Shown piece after piece: positions 1 to 9,308 of a stretch of 64,000 nt of DNA. The stretch lies in the NCBI GenBank assembly GCA_903940125.1, contig CAJAJL010000118.1:1-64000 (forward strand), in the 5' to 3' direction. Each line of letters starts with the position of its first letter. The first letter of the stretch is position 1. Both the position numbers and the translations under genes were made by a program. A model generated the notes under the pieces. It was not told where the DNA came from. It saw nothing but the letters and a program-made list of their open reading frames with translations, and searched no databases. The DNA comes from an uncultured Chlorobiaceae bacterium (GTDB taxonomy: Bacteria > Bacteroidota > Chlorobiia > Chlorobiales > Chlorobiaceae).

Positions 1-1458
1 GTGTGTGTCGGCAAGATTGATCCTGCCACAGGGAAGTTCATCCCCTCTAAACGACTGAACCCACAACAGGCGGCAATTCGGGATCCAGCAGTCACTGCAT
101 CAGCCCAGATAATCGGCCCAGTGGCAGTACTCAATGAGTTTTCCAAACGCACTGGCTTGGCAAACTTGCTGAAATCTTGCTTTCCCGACACCCACAGCCA
201 AATACTGGCGATGGCGAACTACCTCGTCATACAGGGTGGCGCGCTGAGTCATTGCTCATCTTGGGCAAAAAGCCATGAACCAGACCTTGCAACCTCATTA
301 ACCAGCCAGCGGATCAGCGAGATTCTTTCCTCTATCGGAACCGATGCCAAGCAGACGTTTTTGTCCAAATGGATGAAAAAAACGTTGGAAGATGACTATA
401 TCTGTTACGACATCACCTCGATCTCCTCATACTCAGAATTGAACGAATACATCAAATATGGCTATAACCGTGATGGTGAGAAGCTTCCCCAACTCAATCT
501 TGCGATGCTGTTTGGTCAGAAGTCAGCTCTACCGGTCTATTACCACCGCGTTCCGGGCAGCATTACCGATGTCTCAATGCTGCACAATCTTATGTTGACC
601 TTCAAGAAGCTTGAAGTAAATCGACTCCATTTCGTCATGGATAAAGGGTTCTACAGCAAAAAAAACCTTGATGATTTGGTAGAACACCGTGATCGCTTCA
701 CGATCGGAGTCCCCTTGAGCAATAAGTGGTTACAGCATGCTATCGACGAGATCCGTGATACCATTCATGGTCCTGCAGGGTATCGCAAACTTGATGACGA
801 GATACTTTATGTTCACTCACGTCTATACCCTTGGGGAGAGAAAAAACGCCGATGTTACCTCCACTTGTACTACAACGCCAAAAGCCATGCCAAGGATGTG
901 GACATGTTTAATGGGGAACTGCTTGATTACAAACAAGAACTCGAGTCAGGTAAGCCAGTGGCAGAGCACCAGAAGGCCTATGATAATTTCTTTATCCAGA
1001 AGAAAACTCCCAAGCGCGGTCTGCAGGTCTCCTATAACACCGAGGCAATAAGCCATCACATCAGCCGGTACGCAGGATTCCAAGGACTTCTTTCCAATGG
1101 AATCAAGGATCCAGTGGAGGCAATGAGGGTTTACCGGGACAAGGATGCGGTGGAGAAGTGCTTCGACGACCTGAAAAACTCGTTAGACATGAAGCGTCTA
1201 CGAATGCACCAGTCGGCGACTGTCGACGGAAGACTCTTCATCCAGTTTATTGCACTGATCCTGATCAGCGCTCTACGCCAGAAAATGAGAACATCTGGGC
1301 TCATAGAGAAATACACAATCCATGAACTCCTGCGTGAAATGGAAACTATTGTCAAAGTGCAATATTCTGGAAGGTACGGACACATTCTCACCGAGGTTAC
1401 CAAGGCGCAGCGGGATATTCTCAAAGTGCTGGAGGTTCAGCTGTCGGACTATGCATAG
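1..1458 (+). CDS. IS1634/IS4-like DDE transposase (5' end may lie outside window)
   Basis: Transposase of an insertion sequence, 485 residues from a GTG at base 1. A DDE catalytic core can be followed: an Asp in CYDITSISSY near residue 137, a second Asp in FVMDKGFYS near 214, and a C-terminal Glu in DAVEKCFDDLKNSLDMKRL near 385, which is the IS4/IS1634 arrangement. The family is often 500-600 residues long, so the true start may be upstream of the window. No inverted terminal repeat could be fixed, because the left end is not in view. The element ends just before the remains of a Nif11-like peptide gene at 1482, so it may have inserted into that small locus. The reading frame is intact to the TAG at 1456-1458. 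Confidence 0.85.
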   Translation: MCVGKIDPATGKFIPSKRLNPQQAAIRDPAVTASAQIIGPVAVLNEFSKRTGLANLLKSCFPDTHSQILAMANYLVIQGGALSHCSSWAKSHEPDLATSLTSQRISEILSSIGTDAKQTFLSKWMKKTLEDDYICYDITSISSYSELNEYIKYGYNRDGEKLPQLNLAMLFGQKSALPVYYHRVPGSITDVSMLHNLMLTFKKLEVNRLHFVMDKGFYSKKNLDDLVEHRDRFTIGVPLSNKWLQHAIDEIRDTIHGPAGYRKLDDEILYVHSRLYPWGEKKRRCYLHLYYNAKSHAKDVDMFNGELLDYKQELESGKPVAEHQKAYDNFFIQKKTPKRGLQVSYNTEAISHHISRYAGFQGLLSNGIKDPVEAMRVYRDKDAVEKCFDDLKNSLDMKRLRMHQSATVDGRLFIQFIALILISALRQKMRTSGLIEKYTIHELLREMETIVKVQYSGRYGHILTEVTKAQRDILKVLEVQLSDYA

Positions 1459-1481: not shown

Positions 1482-1562
1482 GTTGAATTCAAAGACTCTT
1501 CACCGAAAACTGGAGGTTATGCCAAGCCGACCAAAGAAATTGAACCGCGATTCAAAGATTAA
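1482..1562 (+). pseudogene. C-terminal remnant of a Nif11-like peptide gene with GYAxP tail
   Basis: Only the last 26 codons survive after an in-frame TAG at 1479-1481. They encode a tail containing SSPKTGGYAKPTKEIEPRFKD followed by TAA. The same tail, with changes, ends the next gene at 1831 (SSPQTAGYAKPSKAIERRF), so the two were tandem paralogues. The N-terminal part is missing and an IS transposase gene lies directly upstream, which suggests the copy was cut by insertion or an IS-associated deletion. Function is not known. Confidence 0.55.
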
Positions 1563-1576
1563 AAACAAGTACGCTT

Positions 1577-1833
1577 ATGCCTCAAGAACCATTGGAAGCA
1601 CTGATTAATAGAATGAAAGGTGATACTGCGTTTCGCGCGGAATTGATGGCGAAAGAGGATGTGACGGAACGCATAACGCCGAATGGAATGCCGTCGAAGA
1701 TTGCATGGAGAAGAGTAAGGAGGGTAGTAATTCTGGTGGAGGCAATACGACATCAGTGCTTCAAGGCTCTTCTCCGCAAACTGCAGGTTATGCAAAACCA
1801 AGCAAGGCAATTGAGAGACGGTTCAAGGATTGA
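1577..1833 (+). pseudogene. Nif11-like leader-peptide family gene with apparent one-base frameshift
   Basis: From ATG 1577 the frame reads MPQEPLEALINRMKGDTAF and on to KEDVTERI, which resembles the N-terminal helices of Nif11-type leader peptides (RiPP precursor-like). Near base 1670 the sensible reading moves to the frame ending at TGA 1831: NAEWNAVEDCMEKSKEG, a Gly/Ser linker, then SSPQTAGYAKPSKAIERRF. One missing base around 1669-1674 would join the two halves into a protein of about 86 residues. The tail is shared with the remnant just upstream. Two alternatives remain: a sequencing error (the gene is then functional), or two overlapping short genes. The Nif11 assignment is by pattern only. 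Confidence 0.5.
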
Positions 1834-1876: not shown

Positions 1877-2491
1877 TCAGTACACCAGAGCTTCCTCCTT
1901 CTGCCAAACCTCATTGCGCAGCTGCCAAGCCAAATCAGCATTAATCAAACCGGATTTCATTACCTTATACCACGCCCATTGACTCCACGTTTCATTCTGA
2001 AACTTCCACCATGCCTGTATTGCACGAGCTGCTTTTTCTGCGATCTCTCCGGCCTTATCACCCTTGAAACATCCAATAGCTAAATCGAAATAATCATAGG
2101 AGTCGCATGAATTCTGCGAGAGGGTTACAGCATAGACATTATAACCGGGAAGAAACGTCGCATAATAGGTTTCAGGCCATGATAACGCCGGAACGGAATC
2201 CTCCGCCCAGTTAATTTCAAAAAGATGGATGGGGCTGAGCAGGTCGTTTCGACGGTGAACAGAACAATCCCAGAATTTGCGGTCAAAAACTTTAGAGCAA
2301 TCCTCCATGATTGTGATGCATTGAGGAAGCCGTTCCTGAACCAAAAAGAGTGCAATCTCAGCGACTTTGTTTGAATCGGACAGATCGTCCCTTTCCGGAT
2401 AAAGTGGCGAATGCTCTATCCACCATTCAATGGCGGCCTGTTCATCCCTTGTATAGATGGAAGGTATTATCATACTCTCTTGAAAAATCAT
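1877..2491 (-). CDS. Hypothetical protein, 204 aa, not recognised
   Basis: Soluble protein rich in Trp and acidic residues with no signal peptide, membrane segment or motif that I recognise. The start at 2491 is preceded by an AAAGG about eight bases upstream, which supports it; a second Met lies six codons further in. It is convergent with the decayed Nif11-like genes and divergent from the DUF2156 gene across an AT-rich gap. Its length, smooth composition and ribosome site argue for a real gene. The role is unknown. Confidence 0.6.
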   Translation of the reverse strand: MIFQESMIIPSIYTRDEQAAIEWWIEHSPLYPERDDLSDSNKVAEIALFLVQERLPQCITIMEDCSKVFDRKFWDCSVHRRNDLLSPIHLFEINWAEDSVPALSWPETYYATFLPGYNVYAVTLSQNSCDSYDYFDLAIGCFKGDKAGEIAEKAARAIQAWWKFQNETWSQWAWYKVMKSGLINADLAWQLRNEVWQKEEALVY

Positions 2492-2575: not shown

Positions 2576-2772
2576 GAAAATGTCAATAATTTGAGGGGGT
2601 ATGACAGAGGATATTGGAAAACGGTTTACGGATCAGGAACTTTTTATCAGCATCAAAATCACAGTTTCTGCAAGGAAAAACTGTTGTGTTGTGGTTATGG
2701 ACTGAATTTTTGTTATCGTTTTGCATCCGATACGTTTTAATTTGCCTCAAGTCAATTGAGAAAACCGGTTGT

Positions 2773-3723
2773 ATGCATGAACTCCTCCCTTTAAGCTGGA
2801 CGAGGATCGACAGTCTCCGTCCGATCTACCGGACCATCACTTTACCATTATCAGGGATAACGTGGATCACTTATGCTGACATTCCCCGCAATTATTCATT
2901 TGAGATCCTCCATGAAGACCTGACGGCATCTTATTCAGACGGGTACGTATTTCGCGGATGCACTCAAAAAATGAGCAACTATTTTGCAGCATCACATTGC
3001 AGTATATTGAGGACTGGAGCAGAAGCTGTTCTGGATTTGCACAGTTCTCATATAGAGAAAAAAACAGTTGTCAGCTCTCTTGTCAGAGGGAAAAAACAGG
3101 GAGTTGCGGAAGAGATTGCGCTGAGTGATTTACATCAAAAGCATTTTGAGCAATTTCGAAGGGAAACAACACATGCAGGGAAACCACAGCTTCACCATTT
3201 ATTCAGGGAGCTCCCTTCCAGGATAAGTCGCTGCTTTGTGTTTCGTGCATTTTCGGGTAAATGGCTTGCGGCAATAACGCTCTCACAAAGGGGGAAAGTG
3301 GAGATGCATACGGAACTGATGTTGAGGCATCGGAATGCACCAGGTGATATTATGGAATGTCTGGTGGCAGCTATATTTGAGTTACTGAGACATGAAGGAA
3401 TGCGTGAATGGAGTTTAGGTGAAGTGCCATTCATCCAGTTGATGCAGAGTTCCGAAGAAGTGCTTACCCCGATGGAGCAGTTGATGGTTTCACTGGCACA
3501 TCGGTGCAAACATGCTTACGACTTTGAAGGTCTTTACCGTTTTAAAAACAAGTTCGCACCGATATGGCGACCTGTGATGCTCTGCACGAACACCACACCT
3601 ACCCCGCTCATGCTGGTGGAACTTGCTTTCAGTATGGGTTTTACCAATCTGCTGATGCACGAATCTTTCGTACACTCCCTGAAGCCATTTTATTTTCCAA
3701 AAGTGCTTTTCCTGCAACAATGA
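2773..3723 (+). CDS. Stand-alone DUF2156 / LPG_synthase_C-like protein
   Basis: 316 residues from ATG 2773, chosen because upstream codons read like translated intergenic sequence. It resembles the C-terminal cytosolic domain of phosphatidylglycerol lysyltransferases (a tandem GNAT-like fold, DUF2156). The signs are LMLRHRNAPGDIMECLVAAI followed by a REWSLGEVPF segment and an LYRFKNKFAPIWRP block near the end, which matches the usual 'F-K-x-K-F-x-P-x-W' ending of this family. The membrane flippase half of MprF is absent. Aminoacyl transfer to lipid is therefore possible but unproven; many stand-alone DUF2156 proteins have no known substrate. It is convergent with the response regulator at 3767-4495. 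Confidence 0.7.
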   Translation: MHELLPLSWTRIDSLRPIYRTITLPLSGITWITYADIPRNYSFEILHEDLTASYSDGYVFRGCTQKMSNYFAASHCSILRTGAEAVLDLHSSHIEKKTVVSSLVRGKKQGVAEEIALSDLHQKHFEQFRRETTHAGKPQLHHLFRELPSRISRCFVFRAFSGKWLAAITLSQRGKVEMHTELMLRHRNAPGDIMECLVAAIFELLRHEGMREWSLGEVPFIQLMQSSEEVLTPMEQLMVSLAHRCKHAYDFEGLYRFKNKFAPIWRPVMLCTNTTPTPLMLVELAFSMGFTNLLMHESFVHSLKPFYFPKVLFLQQ

Positions 3724-3766: not shown

Positions 3767-4495
3767 TTATACGGTGTTGATTGAAGCCGCAAAAGAGTAC
3801 CCGGAGCCATGGGTGGTTTTAACAGGAATGCTGTATTTGAGACCATCCTTTTTAAGACGCAAACGATGAACCAGCGCATCCAGGGAACGATTGCCAAGTT
3901 CATTGTTTTCATAACCAAGACCTGTTAACAGATCCTGACGGAGAATAACCGTGTTTGAAGATAGTGCCAGCCGTTCAACCAGATCAAATTCCTTTGAAGT
4001 AAGTTTTATCTTTTCTCCTGCGGGAGAACATAAGGTCCAGTTACTGCGTATAAGTGTCCATTGCGAGTGCTTATTCTCCAAGGCCGGTTCGACTGCCTGC
4101 TGTGATAATGACAGGCAGAGACTCGCATCAAGGCGACGGAGCATGCTGTAAATCGATGCCGACAATTCCGAAAAGTCTATCGGTTTAACCAGATAGATAT
4201 CCGCCCCAGCCGTATAGGCATTTACTTTGCTTTCCAGTGATGACTGTGCAGTGAGCATAATAATGCGTATATCCGTATTGTTGCGGATATATTCGGCCAG
4301 CACCAGACCGTTCTGGTCCGGCAGTCCGATATCGAGAATTGCCAGATCATATTGGTGCATAGTAATGCTCTGATAGAACTGCAGTGCTGATTCTACACCG
4401 GTAACATCAAGTCCCTTCAGCACAAGATATTCCACCATACTTTCACGGAAATCACAATCATCTTCAACAATGATTACTCGTCTGCAGTCGGCCAT
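3767..4495 (-). CDS. OmpR/PhoB-type response regulator
   Basis: 242 residues. The receiver domain (about 1-118) has the acidic pair in VEDDCDF and the phospho-acceptor Asp55 in LAILDIGLPD, with a conserved KPID lysine loop. Residues about 140-240 form a winged-helix trans_reg_C domain (KIKLTSKEFDLVERL, then RLKK and the terminal HGSGYSF). It follows the eight-PAS kinase on the same strand by about 100 bases, so the two are very likely a cognate pair. The target genes are not visible; the chlorosome-like genes upstream of the kinase are one possibility. Confidence 0.9.
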   Translation of the reverse strand: MADCRRVIIVEDDCDFRESMVEYLVLKGLDVTGVESALQFYQSITMHQYDLAILDIGLPDQNGLVLAEYIRNNTDIRIIMLTAQSSLESKVNAYTAGADIYLVKPIDFSELSASIYSMLRRLDASLCLSLSQQAVEPALENKHSQWTLIRSNWTLCSPAGEKIKLTSKEFDLVERLALSSNTVILRQDLLTGLGYENNELGNRSLDALVHRLRLKKDGLKYSIPVKTTHGSGYSFAASINTV

Positions 4496-4596: not shown

Positions 4597-7500
4597 TCAA
4601 TGCGCCCGACGAATAAGAGGCAGGAGAATTGTTGCTTCGACTCCTGATGCAATACCTTTAAGGCTGACCTGCCCGTTATGTTCTTCGATGATGTTCTTCA
4701 CCATCCACAACCCGAGACCTGCACCTCCGGTATTCATGGAGTTACTACCGCGCTTGTACTTTTCAAATAATATTTCAGCTTCGCACTTTTTAATCGGTTT
4801 ACCATAGTTAGTGATGCATATAACAGCATTGTCTCCCTCCAGAAAGCAGTCGAGTTCGATCGGAGAGTCTGGTGAAGAATATTTACGGGCATTATCAAAA
4901 AGGTTGAATATGGCTAATTTCAACTGTGAAGGATCACCGATAATTTTACATTCTTCAAGGTTTTCTGAATAATGAACATCCTGATCAGGCCACATAGCCA
5001 TAAAAGAATGAACCTGTGAAGTAATGACAGGAGCAAGTTGAAAAGATTTCAATGGCAATACGTTCTTTGATGTGAATAAGCGGTTTTCATGCATGGACTC
5101 TTCCATAACCTCTACTAACCGGTCGATAGCACGACGTATTTTGGTCATTTCGACTTGATGAACACAGTTACTGTGTTTATTTTTCAGCTCTATGAGATCA
5201 AGGTTACCTCGGATAATTGCCAGAGGGGTTCGGTATTCATGGGAAATCATGTGTAAAAAGCTGTTAAGGCGCTTCACTTCCTCTTTAAGCTGATGCGTAC
5301 GATCAGCGACAATCTGCTCCAACCGTTCTATGCTTACCTGTTGTACCTCCTGTAAAGTCATATCCATCATCATCACCAGAACACACTCTTTGTCGTTAAG
5401 AGTAATTTGATCTTCAGAATAAAGGACGTAAACTATCTCTCCGTTTTTTTTTCGGAAGTGGGAAGCCTTGTTAATTATTTTCCCATGTTCATTGATCGTC
5501 GCGACATCAGTTTCATAATCTTCGTTTTTTATATACAGCTGCAGGTCTTTAAAACTTCGTCCTATGACCTCTTCTTTCGTATACCCTAAGATTCGCTCCC
5601 ACGCATCATTGACATCGAATAGTTTATCATCCAGAATATCTCTGATAGCAATAGCAATAGGGGAATGATCAAAAATAGTTCTGAATTGGAGTTCACTTTC
5701 CCTGAGTACAGTCTGAAAGAGTTTTTGTTCGGTAATATCCTGTACAATACCTAAAACATGACTTGATTTGCTGTTTTTGTCGTGCTTGAATGCGCCGGTA
5801 ACTCTAATCCATCGCAAATCACCCTTTGCAGAGTGAATTCGACACTCGAAAGCATATTTTTCCTTTTTTTCTATTGCGCTTTTAATAAAAGTCTTTGTTC
5901 CGACACGATCTTCGGGAATGATATGATCTAAAAACTTCTCAAGTGACCATACTTGCGAAATTGTCTCGTAACCGAAAATACGGGCATGCTCAAGCGTCCG
6001 AGCTGTAGTGTTATCATTCAGATTCCAGTCCCAAACCCCGATATGACTGTTTTCAAGAATAAAATTAAGCCGTTCCTGACTTCTTATAAGCTTTTCTTCT
6101 ATTGCTTTCCTTTCGGTTATATCAATAATTGTACCGATATACCGCTCAACGCTTCCATTCCTGTCGTATATGGGTCTGCCGCGGGACAACAGCCAACGTT
6201 CAGAACCGGTATTATTCGAGATCCTATATTCAACGTAAAGCTCGCTTTCATTGTCGGCTGCTGAGGATACGGCCTGGATAGCCATCTCGCGGTCATCAGG
6301 ATGAATGGTTTCAGCCCAGAGATCGAAGGACGGTGTGCTGCAAGCCTTTTCAAGCCCATATAATCCCCATGTCTCTTCCGACCAGATGTTCGCTCCTGTT
6401 TTCAGGTTCCACTCCCAGATACCTGCACGTGCAGCATCCAAAGCCTGGGCAAGCCTCGTCTGGCCTTCAAGAAGTTGGTTTAACAACTCCTTGCGGCTTG
6501 TAATATCAGTAACAGTTCCGATATAAGATTGCAACTGACCGTCAGCATTATATCTCGGCAAACCCTTACACATCAGCCAGTGGATGGAACCGTCCTTATA
6601 GCATACGCGATATTCGATATTTATTTCAATCTCTTTGCTTGCTGCAGCCATGACTTGCTCGAATACCAAATCCCGATCGTCAGGGTGAATGTTGCTTTCG
6701 CAAAGTTTGTGTGTTGCCGGTTTGCTGTTCGGTTCCAATCCATATAATTTCCAGACATTGTCAGTCCAAGTAACTTTATCCGCGATTACATCCCATTCCC
6801 AGACGCCTGTATTTGTTGCTTCCAGAGCAAAAGTCATTCTCTGTTTACGCTCGAGGAGCTCTGTTTCTATCTTTTTGCGTTCGGTAATGTCGATGATTGT
6901 TCCGATATACCGTGTCACTTGACCTTTAGCGTCATGCAGAGGCATTCCTCGTGATGTGAGCCAGTGAACGGAGCCGTCAGGGTGACAAGTGCGATATTCG
7001 AGAGATGCAGCGATACCGTTACTGACAGCATCTCGTATGATCCAGGATACCATCTCACGGTCATCAGGGTAAATGGTATCTACACAGAGCTGGTTGTTCA
7101 AAGGGAGACTGTTTACTTTCAAACCGTACAATCCCCATACCTGCTCCGACCAGCTCAGTTCATCGGTTTTAACATTCCATTCCCAAATGCCGGATTGCGC
7201 TGCATCCAGTGCATAACTGTATCTCAGTTTGCTCTCAATCAGCTCAAGCTCCATTTTTTTACGCTCAGTGATATCAATTATCGTCCCGATGTAATGAGTC
7301 GCGGAGCCATTATTGTCGAATAACGGCTTACCGCGAGACATGAGCCAGTGGACAGAGCCGTCAGAGTACAAGACACGAAATTCGACACTCAACTCTGTTT
7401 CGTTCCTGGCAGCACGGGAAATTGACTGGATTGCCGACTCCCTATCATCGGGATGAATTGTATCTGACCAAAGCTGGAAAGTGGGTTTTTGATCGACCCG

Positions 7501-8400
7501 TTCCAGTCCGTATAATGACCATATCTCATCAGACCAGATAACTTCATCAGTTTTAAGGTCCCATTCCCAAGCTCCGGCATGAGCAGCTTCCATAGCCTGG
7601 TGAAGCCTGTTTCTGTTGTTGATCAGTTCTGTTTCTATCCGTTTTCGATTGCTTATATCGACACCAATAGAGACTGCACAGGGCTTACCTTCGATGAAGA
7701 TCCTGCTGGTGTTTGTCAACAGCCATAACGGTTCAGTCCCACCCTGAGGAAAAACTTTTATTACTTTGTTATACTCAATCCCAGAAGTGATGGTTTCCAT
7801 GAATTTTTTTCTGAGAAAACCCATATCCTGAGAACCAAAAAAATCATTAGCAGTAACGCGAAGCCTGGCGGTGTCTGTTGAACAGAAAAGCAAACCCTCC
7901 GCATACTTGTTCCTGACAATAATGCGAAGATCCGCATCAAAAATAATGGCAGAACACGGTATCGAATCGAGAAGGGCTGTTTTCAGGGCACGCTCTTTCT
8001 GCAATTCCTTGTCAATACGTTTCTGCTCGGAAATATTCTGTATTGTGATGAGCAGTCTTGAAATTTCACCTTCCGCAATCAGAACCGGACTGATGGTGAC
8101 TTTTCTGACATCCTTTTCATCTGCAAAAACGACCCGTTTACCAGTGCGAAGAACCTCTTGACATTTCTCTCTGTGGTAAACTGCAAGTTCAGGCAATTGC
8201 AACACGTTCATGATCAGATCATAAACATTGATTCCGATGCACTCCTGCGGATGCTTACCGAATTGTGCGGCAAACAGGGTGTTGGTATTGAGAATAAAAC
8301 CTTTGAGGTCTATGAGGTAAACCGCATCAGGAAGGGATTCAAGTAATGCAGAAACCGTATCGTCTACACGGTTTTTTTCATAAGAGATATTTTTTTTCAT
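4597..8400 (-). CDS. Multi-PAS sensor histidine kinase (eight PAS domains)
   Basis: Soluble kinase of about 1267 residues. I used ATG 8400; a TTG at 8415 is an alternative. There are eight PAS domains: two diverse ones (about 10-255), four near-identical PAS_3 copies with a 128-residue period (about 265-770, each with WEW..K...W and IHPDDR motifs and ending YIGT..DITERK or close variants), then two more diverse ones (to about 1025). A HisKA domain follows with the phospho-acceptor His in MISHEYRTPL near residue 1054, then HATPase_c with FNLFDNARKYS and GGAGLGLWMVK. No membrane segments are seen, so the signal is probably sensed in the cytoplasm (redox, light or a small molecule; inference). 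Its partner is the regulator at 3767-4495. Confidence 0.92.
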   Translation of the reverse strand: MKKNISYEKNRVDDTVSALLESLPDAVYLIDLKGFILNTNTLFAAQFGKHPQECIGINVYDLIMNVLQLPELAVYHREKCQEVLRTGKRVVFADEKDVRKVTISPVLIAEGEISRLLITIQNISEQKRIDKELQKERALKTALLDSIPCSAIIFDADLRIIVRNKYAEGLLFCSTDTARLRVTANDFFGSQDMGFLRKKFMETITSGIEYNKVIKVFPQGGTEPLWLLTNTSRIFIEGKPCAVSIGVDISNRKRIETELINNRNRLHQAMEAAHAGAWEWDLKTDEVIWSDEIWSLYGLERVDQKPTFQLWSDTIHPDDRESAIQSISRAARNETELSVEFRVLYSDGSVHWLMSRGKPLFDNNGSATHYIGTIIDITERKKMELELIESKLRYSYALDAAQSGIWEWNVKTDELSWSEQVWGLYGLKVNSLPLNNQLCVDTIYPDDREMVSWIIRDAVSNGIAASLEYRTCHPDGSVHWLTSRGMPLHDAKGQVTRYIGTIIDITERKKIETELLERKQRMTFALEATNTGVWEWDVIADKVTWTDNVWKLYGLEPNSKPATHKLCESNIHPDDRDLVFEQVMAAASKEIEINIEYRVCYKDGSIHWLMCKGLPRYNADGQLQSYIGTVTDITSRKELLNQLLEGQTRLAQALDAARAGIWEWNLKTGANIWSEETWGLYGLEKACSTPSFDLWAETIHPDDREMAIQAVSSAADNESELYVEYRISNNTGSERWLLSRGRPIYDRNGSVERYIGTIIDITERKAIEEKLIRSQERLNFILENSHIGVWDWNLNDNTTARTLEHARIFGYETISQVWSLEKFLDHIIPEDRVGTKTFIKSAIEKKEKYAFECRIHSAKGDLRWIRVTGAFKHDKNSKSSHVLGIVQDITEQKLFQTVLRESELQFRTIFDHSPIAIAIRDILDDKLFDVNDAWERILGYTKEEVIGRSFKDLQLYIKNEDYETDVATINEHGKIINKASHFRKKNGEIVYVLYSEDQITLNDKECVLVMMMDMTLQEVQQVSIERLEQIVADRTHQLKEEVKRLNSFLHMISHEYRTPLAIIRGNLDLIELKNKHSNCVHQVEMTKIRRAIDRLVEVMEESMHENRLFTSKNVLPLKSFQLAPVITSQVHSFMAMWPDQDVHYSENLEECKIIGDPSQLKLAIFNLFDNARKYSSPDSPIELDCFLEGDNAVICITNYGKPIKKCEAEILFEKYKRGSNSMNTGGAGLGLWMVKNIIEEHNGQVSLKGIASGVEATILLPLIRRAH
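6090..7620 (-). repeat. Four tandem PAS-coding repeats, period about 384 bp
   Basis: Inside the kinase gene, four consecutive PAS_3 + PAC units repeat with a 128-codon period. Shared landmarks are WEWDLKTDEVIW, WEWNVKTDELSW, WEWDVIADKVTW and WEWNLKTGANIW, each followed by IHPDDR. The copies have clearly diverged, so the duplication is not recent, but unequal crossover could still change copy number. Confidence 0.8.
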
Positions 8401-8482
8401 AAGCACAGGTACCAAGGAAGATCTGTTTAGATCCCATGATCATACTACTGGCTTATAATTTATTGAGAATCCTCAATTATAA

Positions 8483-8855: not shown

Positions 8856-9083
8856 TTACGCTTTCGGAGCAATTGCGGTTGATACCTTCTGAACCGTCTG
8901 GCTACAAGTATTGAACACATTGCCCGGAATTTCAAGAGCGGCTTTGCACAATGGTTCAACAGCCGCTGCGATAGATTTAATACCACCAGTAACCAATTCA
9001 ACCTGCTGCTGACCCAGTTTTCCTACAATTTCCACCAGATTACTGACTGCAGCCGAAATGTCGTTTGTTGTTTCGTTTGCCAT
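8856..9083 (-). CDS. Chlorosome envelope protein of the CsmB/CsmF family
   Basis: 75 residues from the ATG at 9083 (MANETTNDIS); another in-frame ATG at 9095 adds four residues and cannot be excluded. The sequence has the family pattern of an amphipathic helix with VEIVGKLGQQQVELV, a central NxxK-like IKSIAAAVEPL stretch, and a terminal VSTAIAPK. CsmB and CsmF are small proteins of the chlorosome envelope, the light-harvesting organelle of green sulfur bacteria, and this copy is of the usual length. A terminator follows at 8785-8826. B and F cannot be told apart by reading, so no symbol is given. Confidence 0.75.
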   Translation of the reverse strand: MANETTNDISAAVSNLVEIVGKLGQQQVELVTGGIKSIAAAVEPLCKAALEIPGNVFNTCSQTVQKVSTAIAPKA

Positions 9084-9308
9084 CTCTGTTATCATTTTAG
9101 TTGGGAAAAATTATAAATGTTATTCGAAAAACGAAAAAGCACTCTGTCGCTGTACGAAAGAAAGGTATTACTTGTTTATTTTTTTGTTTTCTTATTTATT
9201 TGTTATAAATGTCATAAATATTAAATAACCTTGCAAGCTAAAAAAATATTTTTGGATCCTGTTCATTTTGTCACAGCAATTTTTATCATTTATTGCAGAT
9301 TTCCGGGC

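Follow-up and report, generated by a model that had tools for sequence, protein, structure and literature searches.

The chlorosome baseplate protein CsmA is essential, and its C-terminal residues are removed by proteolysis (PMC4992139). The mature CsmA sequence in the PDB (2k37, 5lcb) stops at residue 59 (...SLRGS59), the precursor continuing with SPEVSGYAVPTK, and His25 of the mature domain is a ligand of bacteriochlorophyll (BChl) a (PMC4992139). To our knowledge, neither the route by which CsmA is delivered nor the protease that trims it has been identified. A second group of precursors, the Nif11-leader RiPP precursors (N11P, PF07862/TIGR03798), typically consist of a conserved leader, a Gly-Gly motif and a core that varies from protein to protein (PMC2887384). 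C-terminal cargo-loading peptides of encapsulin and microcompartment systems provide a third point of reference; in these, a folded domain is followed by a disordered linker and a short conserved terminal peptide. Our search of the literature, which was restricted to open-access papers, found no mention of Nif11 and the chlorosome together.

The window analysed here is a stretch of 64,000 nucleotides that forms the start of contig C118 in the 2.98-Mb draft genome (G000) of an uncultured green sulfur bacterium. It contains the broken remains of a two-gene unit, in which a CsmE-type gene is followed by a gene fusing a Nif11 domain, a variable linker and a CsmA/CsmE-type propeptide, and the fusion gene is intact in relatives. 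The genome encodes both csmA and csmE, and its close relatives in the named-genome collection are metagenome-assembled genomes (MAGs) of Chlorobium/Chlorobiaceae.

Organization of the broken locus

The window opens within an insertion element of the IS1634 family, the right part of which occupies 1-1482 on the forward strand (transposase 1-1458; NF033559 transpos_IS1634, 285.5 bits). The left end of the element is on contig C66 of the same genome, whose start has 141 bp in common with the window start; the element has inverted ends and a 6-bp target duplication, TTGAAT, common to both outer flanks. Contigs C66 and C118 are neighbours in the genome, and the assembly break lies inside the element (window 1-141, G000:C66:1-460).

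A preliminary description of this locus had proposed tandem Nif11-like genes ending in nearly the same tail, the second gene being joined by an apparent one-base frameshift. The sharing of the tail held: a visual count gave 16 identical residues among the 21 that start at SSP in DSSPKTGGYAKPTKEIEPRFKD and GSSPQTAGYAKPSKAIERRFKD. The Nif11-like identity held only for the second gene. The first tail, present in an ORF ending at 1562, belongs to what is left of the 3' end of a CsmE-type (Bac_chlorC) gene (1483-1562, forward strand; propeptide tail FKDSSPKTGGYAKPTKEIEPRFKD), which was recognized from positions 55-80 of profile PF02043 (25 bits), from DNA alignment with intact csmE-like genes and from the joining of the flanks. 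Joining the two flanks of the element at the TTGAAT duplication gives a continuous reading frame, MSKLSGVFTNWGEAYGRLVE-FKDSSPKTGGYAKPTKEIEPRFKD, and the flanks are therefore one gene, of the CsmE type, which had already lost ~40 internal residues by an in-frame deletion before IS1634 was inserted. A Nif11 gene at this position was ruled out; the remnant was cut by IS1634, and its other half is on contig C66.

The second gene (1577-1833) has a Nif11-like domain first and the propeptide tail last. Its N-terminal domain (MPQEPLEALINRMKGDTAFRAELMAKED..., 1577-1672, forward strand) scored 16.8 bits with PF07862 and 19.4 bits with TIGR03798, both below the curated cut-offs (23.8 and 32.3 bits, respectively), while the linker and the tail (GSSPQTAGYAKPSKAIERRFKD) occupy 1705-1833 of the same strand. 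The N-terminal part is 78% identical over 33 amino acids to the intact protein of relative G033, and the linker and tail part is 67% identical over 53 amino acids. The one-base frameshift was ruled out as the lesion: DNA alignment with three relatives revealed a 49-bp deletion at approximately 1660-1665 (forward strand), and therefore the frame is shifted by a net one base, which puts the tail out of frame.

The tail is a CsmA/CsmE propeptide

Among the 1,832 stop-to-stop ORFs of at least 20 amino acids in the window, a GYAxPxK-type motif is found only in the two with the tails. The second tail ORF, taken by itself, exceeded the PF02043 cut-off of 25 bits (35 bits, E 1.5e-8), although only positions 50-80 of the 80 in the profile were matched. 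Against the propeptides of CsmA (SSPEVTGYAVPSKEVTSKFAK) and CsmE (SSPEVSGYAKPCKDIEKRFKD) from the same genome, the window tails had BLOSUM62 scores of 56 and 81-82, respectively, and none of 20,000 shuffled tails equalled the observed score, the best shuffle reaching 46. The earlier suggestion that the tail resembles the CsmA propeptide was thus borne out, including in the comparison with shuffled sequences.

The block common to the fusion proteins begins exactly at the end of mature CsmA (RGS/SPEV..., the slash marking that end), and upstream of it there are only ~4-5 loosely similar residues. GSSP, GYA and RF are 100% conserved among 10 fusion tails. Like CsmA and CsmE (PF02043), which are baseplate and envelope proteins of the chlorosome, the fusion protein has the C-terminal propeptide GSSPxxxGYAxPxKxIExRF with identical residues at the cleavage site; in contrast to them, it has a Nif11-derived domain and nothing of the pigment-binding mature part, in which His25 is the BChl a ligand. 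This coincidence with the cleavage site is shown, whereas cleavage of the fusion protein after GS is inferred. Across 110 genomes from the order and neighbouring groups, the only sequences above the PF02043 cut-off other than CsmA/CsmE-type genes, their fragments and pseudogenes were Nif11 fusions. Further matches were set aside: the tail at G104:C163 is that of a CsmA cut by the contig end, and weak matches inside a carboxylase-like gene (G029:C54) and inside repeats (G033:C231) are due to chance.

Intact fusion genes and selection

The profile search identified full-length intact fusion genes in G005, G009, G016, G033 (two), G087 (two), G088, G090 and G100, and possibly in G105, whose copy has lost the standard start codon and has a changed Gly at the scissile site. 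Intact genes are thus present in 8-9 other Chlorobium genomes at the species level, in agreement with the earlier expectation that intact Nif11 genes with this tail occur elsewhere. The copy of G086 is diverged, and that of G089 is broken, at the syntenic place. A match at G084:C124 is a different Nif11 ORF and not a tail fusion. All carriers belong to the genus of the window, and the profile search gave no full-length copy elsewhere in the order, the sister genus included. No isolate was found among the carriers, as the scan of named genomes returned only MAGs, including Lake 227 and GSB_A/GSB_B bins, which are apparently all from uncultured freshwater bacteria. The carriers being draft genomes of one genus, assembly errors could touch single copies but not the recurrent pattern.

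Both ends of the fusion protein are maintained by purifying selection, and the linker is loose. For four disjoint pairs, the N-terminal domain had a pN/pS of 0.21 (95% interval 0.15-0.31) and the tail one of 0.20 (0.07-0.41), against 0.50 in the linker, which also varies in length; the departure from neutrality had p values of 6e-12 and 1e-5 for the two ends. These results bear on the possibility that the gene is a non-functional relic of recombination between nif11 and csmE that remained open in some genomes by chance. In favor of a relic, the copies of the window and G089 are broken, that of G086 is diverged, the csmE-type neighbours have decayed repeatedly, and an unfused arrangement is seen at G016:C48. 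However, the substitution pattern at both ends largely refutes this explanation, and intact copies are spread over 8-9 species-level genomes; we therefore consider a relic very unlikely.

In the AlphaFold model of the fusion protein, residues 5-61 are helical, with a mean pLDDT above 90 in the part from 11 to 40; the linker is predicted to be disordered, and the tail contains a short helix (92-97). No solved relatives were found by sequence, the best Foldseek hit had an E value of 5.6, and there was no match to phage families.

Relation of the N-terminal domain to Nif11 leaders

The N-terminus of the fusion protein is homologous to the Nif11 RiPP leaders of the same bacteria. As with the window copy, the scores of its intact relatives (18.8 bits for PF07862 and 20.9 bits for TIGR03798) are below the curated cut-offs, and the homology was established by profile-profile comparison with 16 tail-less Chlorobium Nif11 proteins (hhalign probability 98.2, E 4.6e-14, 43% identity over 49 columns). 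Most of these tail-less proteins end in ...DEAAGG followed by a variable core, and in G033:C137 their genes flank an NHLM exporter (TIGR03796 and TIGR03797 above cut-offs); therefore, they are typical RiPP precursors of the kind described previously (PMC2887384). The likeness to N11P is confined to the first ~35-49 residues of the fusion protein. Unlike in N11P, the Nif11 domain of the fusion proteins is without its second, C-terminal half, and no Gly-Gly motif or variable core was found in their alignments, the conserved tail standing in their place. Furthermore, gene maps of 12 loci showed no maturation or export genes, such as an NHLM exporter, adjacent to the fusion gene. The N-terminus of the fusion protein is thus related to RiPP leaders, in line with the earlier suggestion that a RiPP-type leader family carries the tail, but the characteristics of a RiPP precursor are gone.

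It could be argued that the fusion protein is still a RiPP precursor, with the Nif11 part as the leader and the tail region as the core of a secreted peptide. The homology to Nif11 leaders, the presence of true Nif11 precursors with an NHLM exporter in the same genus, and a SPASM radical SAM gene ~3.4 kb from the fusion gene in G087 and G105 would be in line with this. Against it, the protein has neither the second half of the Nif11 domain nor a Gly-Gly site, its gene is not adjoined by one for an exporter or a modifying enzyme, and the scores fall short of the TIGR03798 cut-off. Moreover, the region that would have to serve as the core is conserved and matches CsmE, in contrast to the variable cores of RiPPs (PMC2887384). 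This explanation therefore seems very improbable.

Arrays of Nif11-leader RiPP precursors with DEAAGG and a variable core were observed in Chlorobium at L092:1-13641 (G033:C137), L088:6126-13004 (G006:C58), L091 (G016:C12) and L093 (G026:C84); the NHLM exporter was confirmed in G033, and similar genes are present in G006. A regulator gene at L088:5064-5852 (G006:C58), whose product is 48% identical to the regulator of the window locus, adjoins a Nif11 RiPP cluster, and from this it is conceivable that the fusion locus and RiPP clusters have a type of regulation in common.

In G016:C48, the gene immediately after a csmE-type gene is a Nif11 gene that is complete (32.6 bits) and has no tail. The gene order is that of the fusion loci, but the protein has the full Nif11 domain and no CsmA tail. 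This arrangement could represent the state before the fusion or, alternatively, a derivative that has lost the tail.

Gene neighborhood and csmE-type paralogs

A csmE-type gene is located 11-17 nt upstream of the fusion start at five loci (G033, G087, G016, G100 and G090). Fusion genes without a csmE-type neighbour are found in G005, G087:C42, G033:C13 and G088, and therefore the fusion does not depend on the csmE-type gene. The linked csmE-type genes form a clade (support 100/99) in which the domain is present but His25 is replaced by Thr or Ser in all seven intact copies. The same seven copies have lost the Tyr of GYA in their own tails (GFA, GTA, GVA or GIA), whereas GYA is kept in 69 other CsmE-type sequences, in all 19 scored CsmA tails and in 10/10 fusion tails.

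These paralogs without His and Tyr, with GTWW or GSWW for GHWW, are located at L041:2444-2698, L079:8516-8770, L089:9839-10093, L082:8135-8425, L084:7955-8227, L087:7749-8009 and L199:4938-5210, and they have probably lost the ability to bind BChl a. The same His has been lost a second time, independently, in a different csmE-type paralog at L200:4882-5199 and L201:5044-5382 (G007 and G015), after which lies a gene for a B12-binding radical SAM protein. Two-part ORFs, with a CGF[AS]TG-motif part and a Nif11-like part, are present at L200:5231-5725, L201:5394-5888, L203:701-1258 and L045:862-1371, just before csmE-type paralogs and/or the B12 radical SAM gene; the first half occurs alone as well (L204:580-852, L079:8749-9198 and L041:2028-2279), and does so at loci with the Nif11 and tail fusion.

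The chlorosome-type context of the fusion gene recurs. Downstream of it in the window are a gene for a conserved protein of ~204-220 amino acids and unknown family (1877-2491, reverse strand; no Pfam match), with orthologues beside the locus in G033, G087, G086 and G089, and a gene for an LPG_synthase_C domain protein (2764-3723, forward strand; PF09924, 77.4 bits), also near fusion genes in G005, G087 and G089. These are followed, on the reverse strand, by genes for an OmpR-type response regulator (3767-4495; PF00072 and PF00486 above cut-off), found beside the locus in G033, G087, G009, G086 and G089, and a multi-PAS histidine kinase (4597-8415; PAS, HisKA and HATPase domains), whose linkage is the same in relatives. 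This conserved pair borders the locus in six genomes, that of the window included. A small ORF of 84 codons (8856-9110, reverse strand; no Pfam family) resembles small Csm-like ORFs of other fusion loci (blastp, 33% over 74 amino acids, E 2e-13). Such small ORFs, tentatively named CsmB/F- or CsmC/D-like although Pfam and phmmer did not bear these names out, recur near the fusion genes together with the 204-220-amino-acid ORF, the LPG_synthase_C protein, an ArsA-type ATPase and a B12 radical SAM protein. In G087:C16, the response-regulator gene beside the fusion locus is split by a transposase-like ORF (L079:6289-7524).

The main rival to the reading that we favor, in which the tail is a cleavable signal, is that the fusion protein is a decoy or regulator: as a propeptide mimic, it would occupy the maturation protease or an assembly factor of CsmA/CsmE and thereby tune baseplate assembly under the control of the adjacent kinase and regulator. 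The canonical GYA of every fusion tail, set against the loss of Tyr in every intact linked CsmE-type copy, and the two-component genes beside six loci are in its favor. However, all 10 tails have kept the scissile GS/SP unchanged, for which an inhibitor that is not cleaved would have no need, and some fusion genes have no csmE-type neighbour at all. We consider the decoy unlikely.

Proposed role of the fusion protein

At a probability of roughly 0.6, and as an inference from sequence alone, we favor the reading that the tail serves the fusion protein, CsmA and CsmE alike as a signal for processing or sorting that can be cleaved off, and that in the fusion protein it takes a repurposed leader domain to the chlorosome. 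According to this reading, GS/SPxxxGYAxPxKxIExRF would be the recognition and cleavage signal of CsmA/CsmE maturation, the tail would direct the Nif11-derived protein to the envelope of the nascent chlorosome, and a cut after GS at that site would release an accessory protein of roughly 65-82 residues. The homology of both ends and the recurrence of the intact gene are shown; the chlorosome location and the role of the mature Nif11-derived domain are inferred, in the absence of cleavage, expression or localisation data. The preliminary description had also suggested a shared processing signal or protease; a protease common to the fusion protein and CsmA/CsmE is plausible but not shown.

Several points count against this reading. 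The named carriers are MAGs of one genus, and the G105 copy has an altered start codon and scissile-site Gly. It is also possible that recombination with the neighbouring csmE-type gene supplied the tail incidentally and that the tail was kept for another reason, such as binding to CsmA.

By analogy, the layout of domain, linker and terminal peptide in the fusion protein is similar to that of encapsulin and microcompartment cargo peptides. However, the two are not homologous, chlorosomes are not enclosed by a protein shell, and the fusion tail is probably cleaved off. In a bolder reading, which we are slightly inclined to doubt, the CsmA propeptide would be a tag for sorting to the chlorosome that is both portable and cleavable, and a leader domain of RiPP origin would have been recruited as non-pigment cargo of the chlorosome by gaining it. 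The fusion protein would then be the first protein without relationship to CsmA on which the tag is seen.

Exactly the piece that is cleaved from CsmA has been grafted naturally onto an unrelated domain and kept there by selection, which means that the piece is functional by itself. The graft also shows that a RiPP leader domain has moved into the biology of a photosynthetic organelle.
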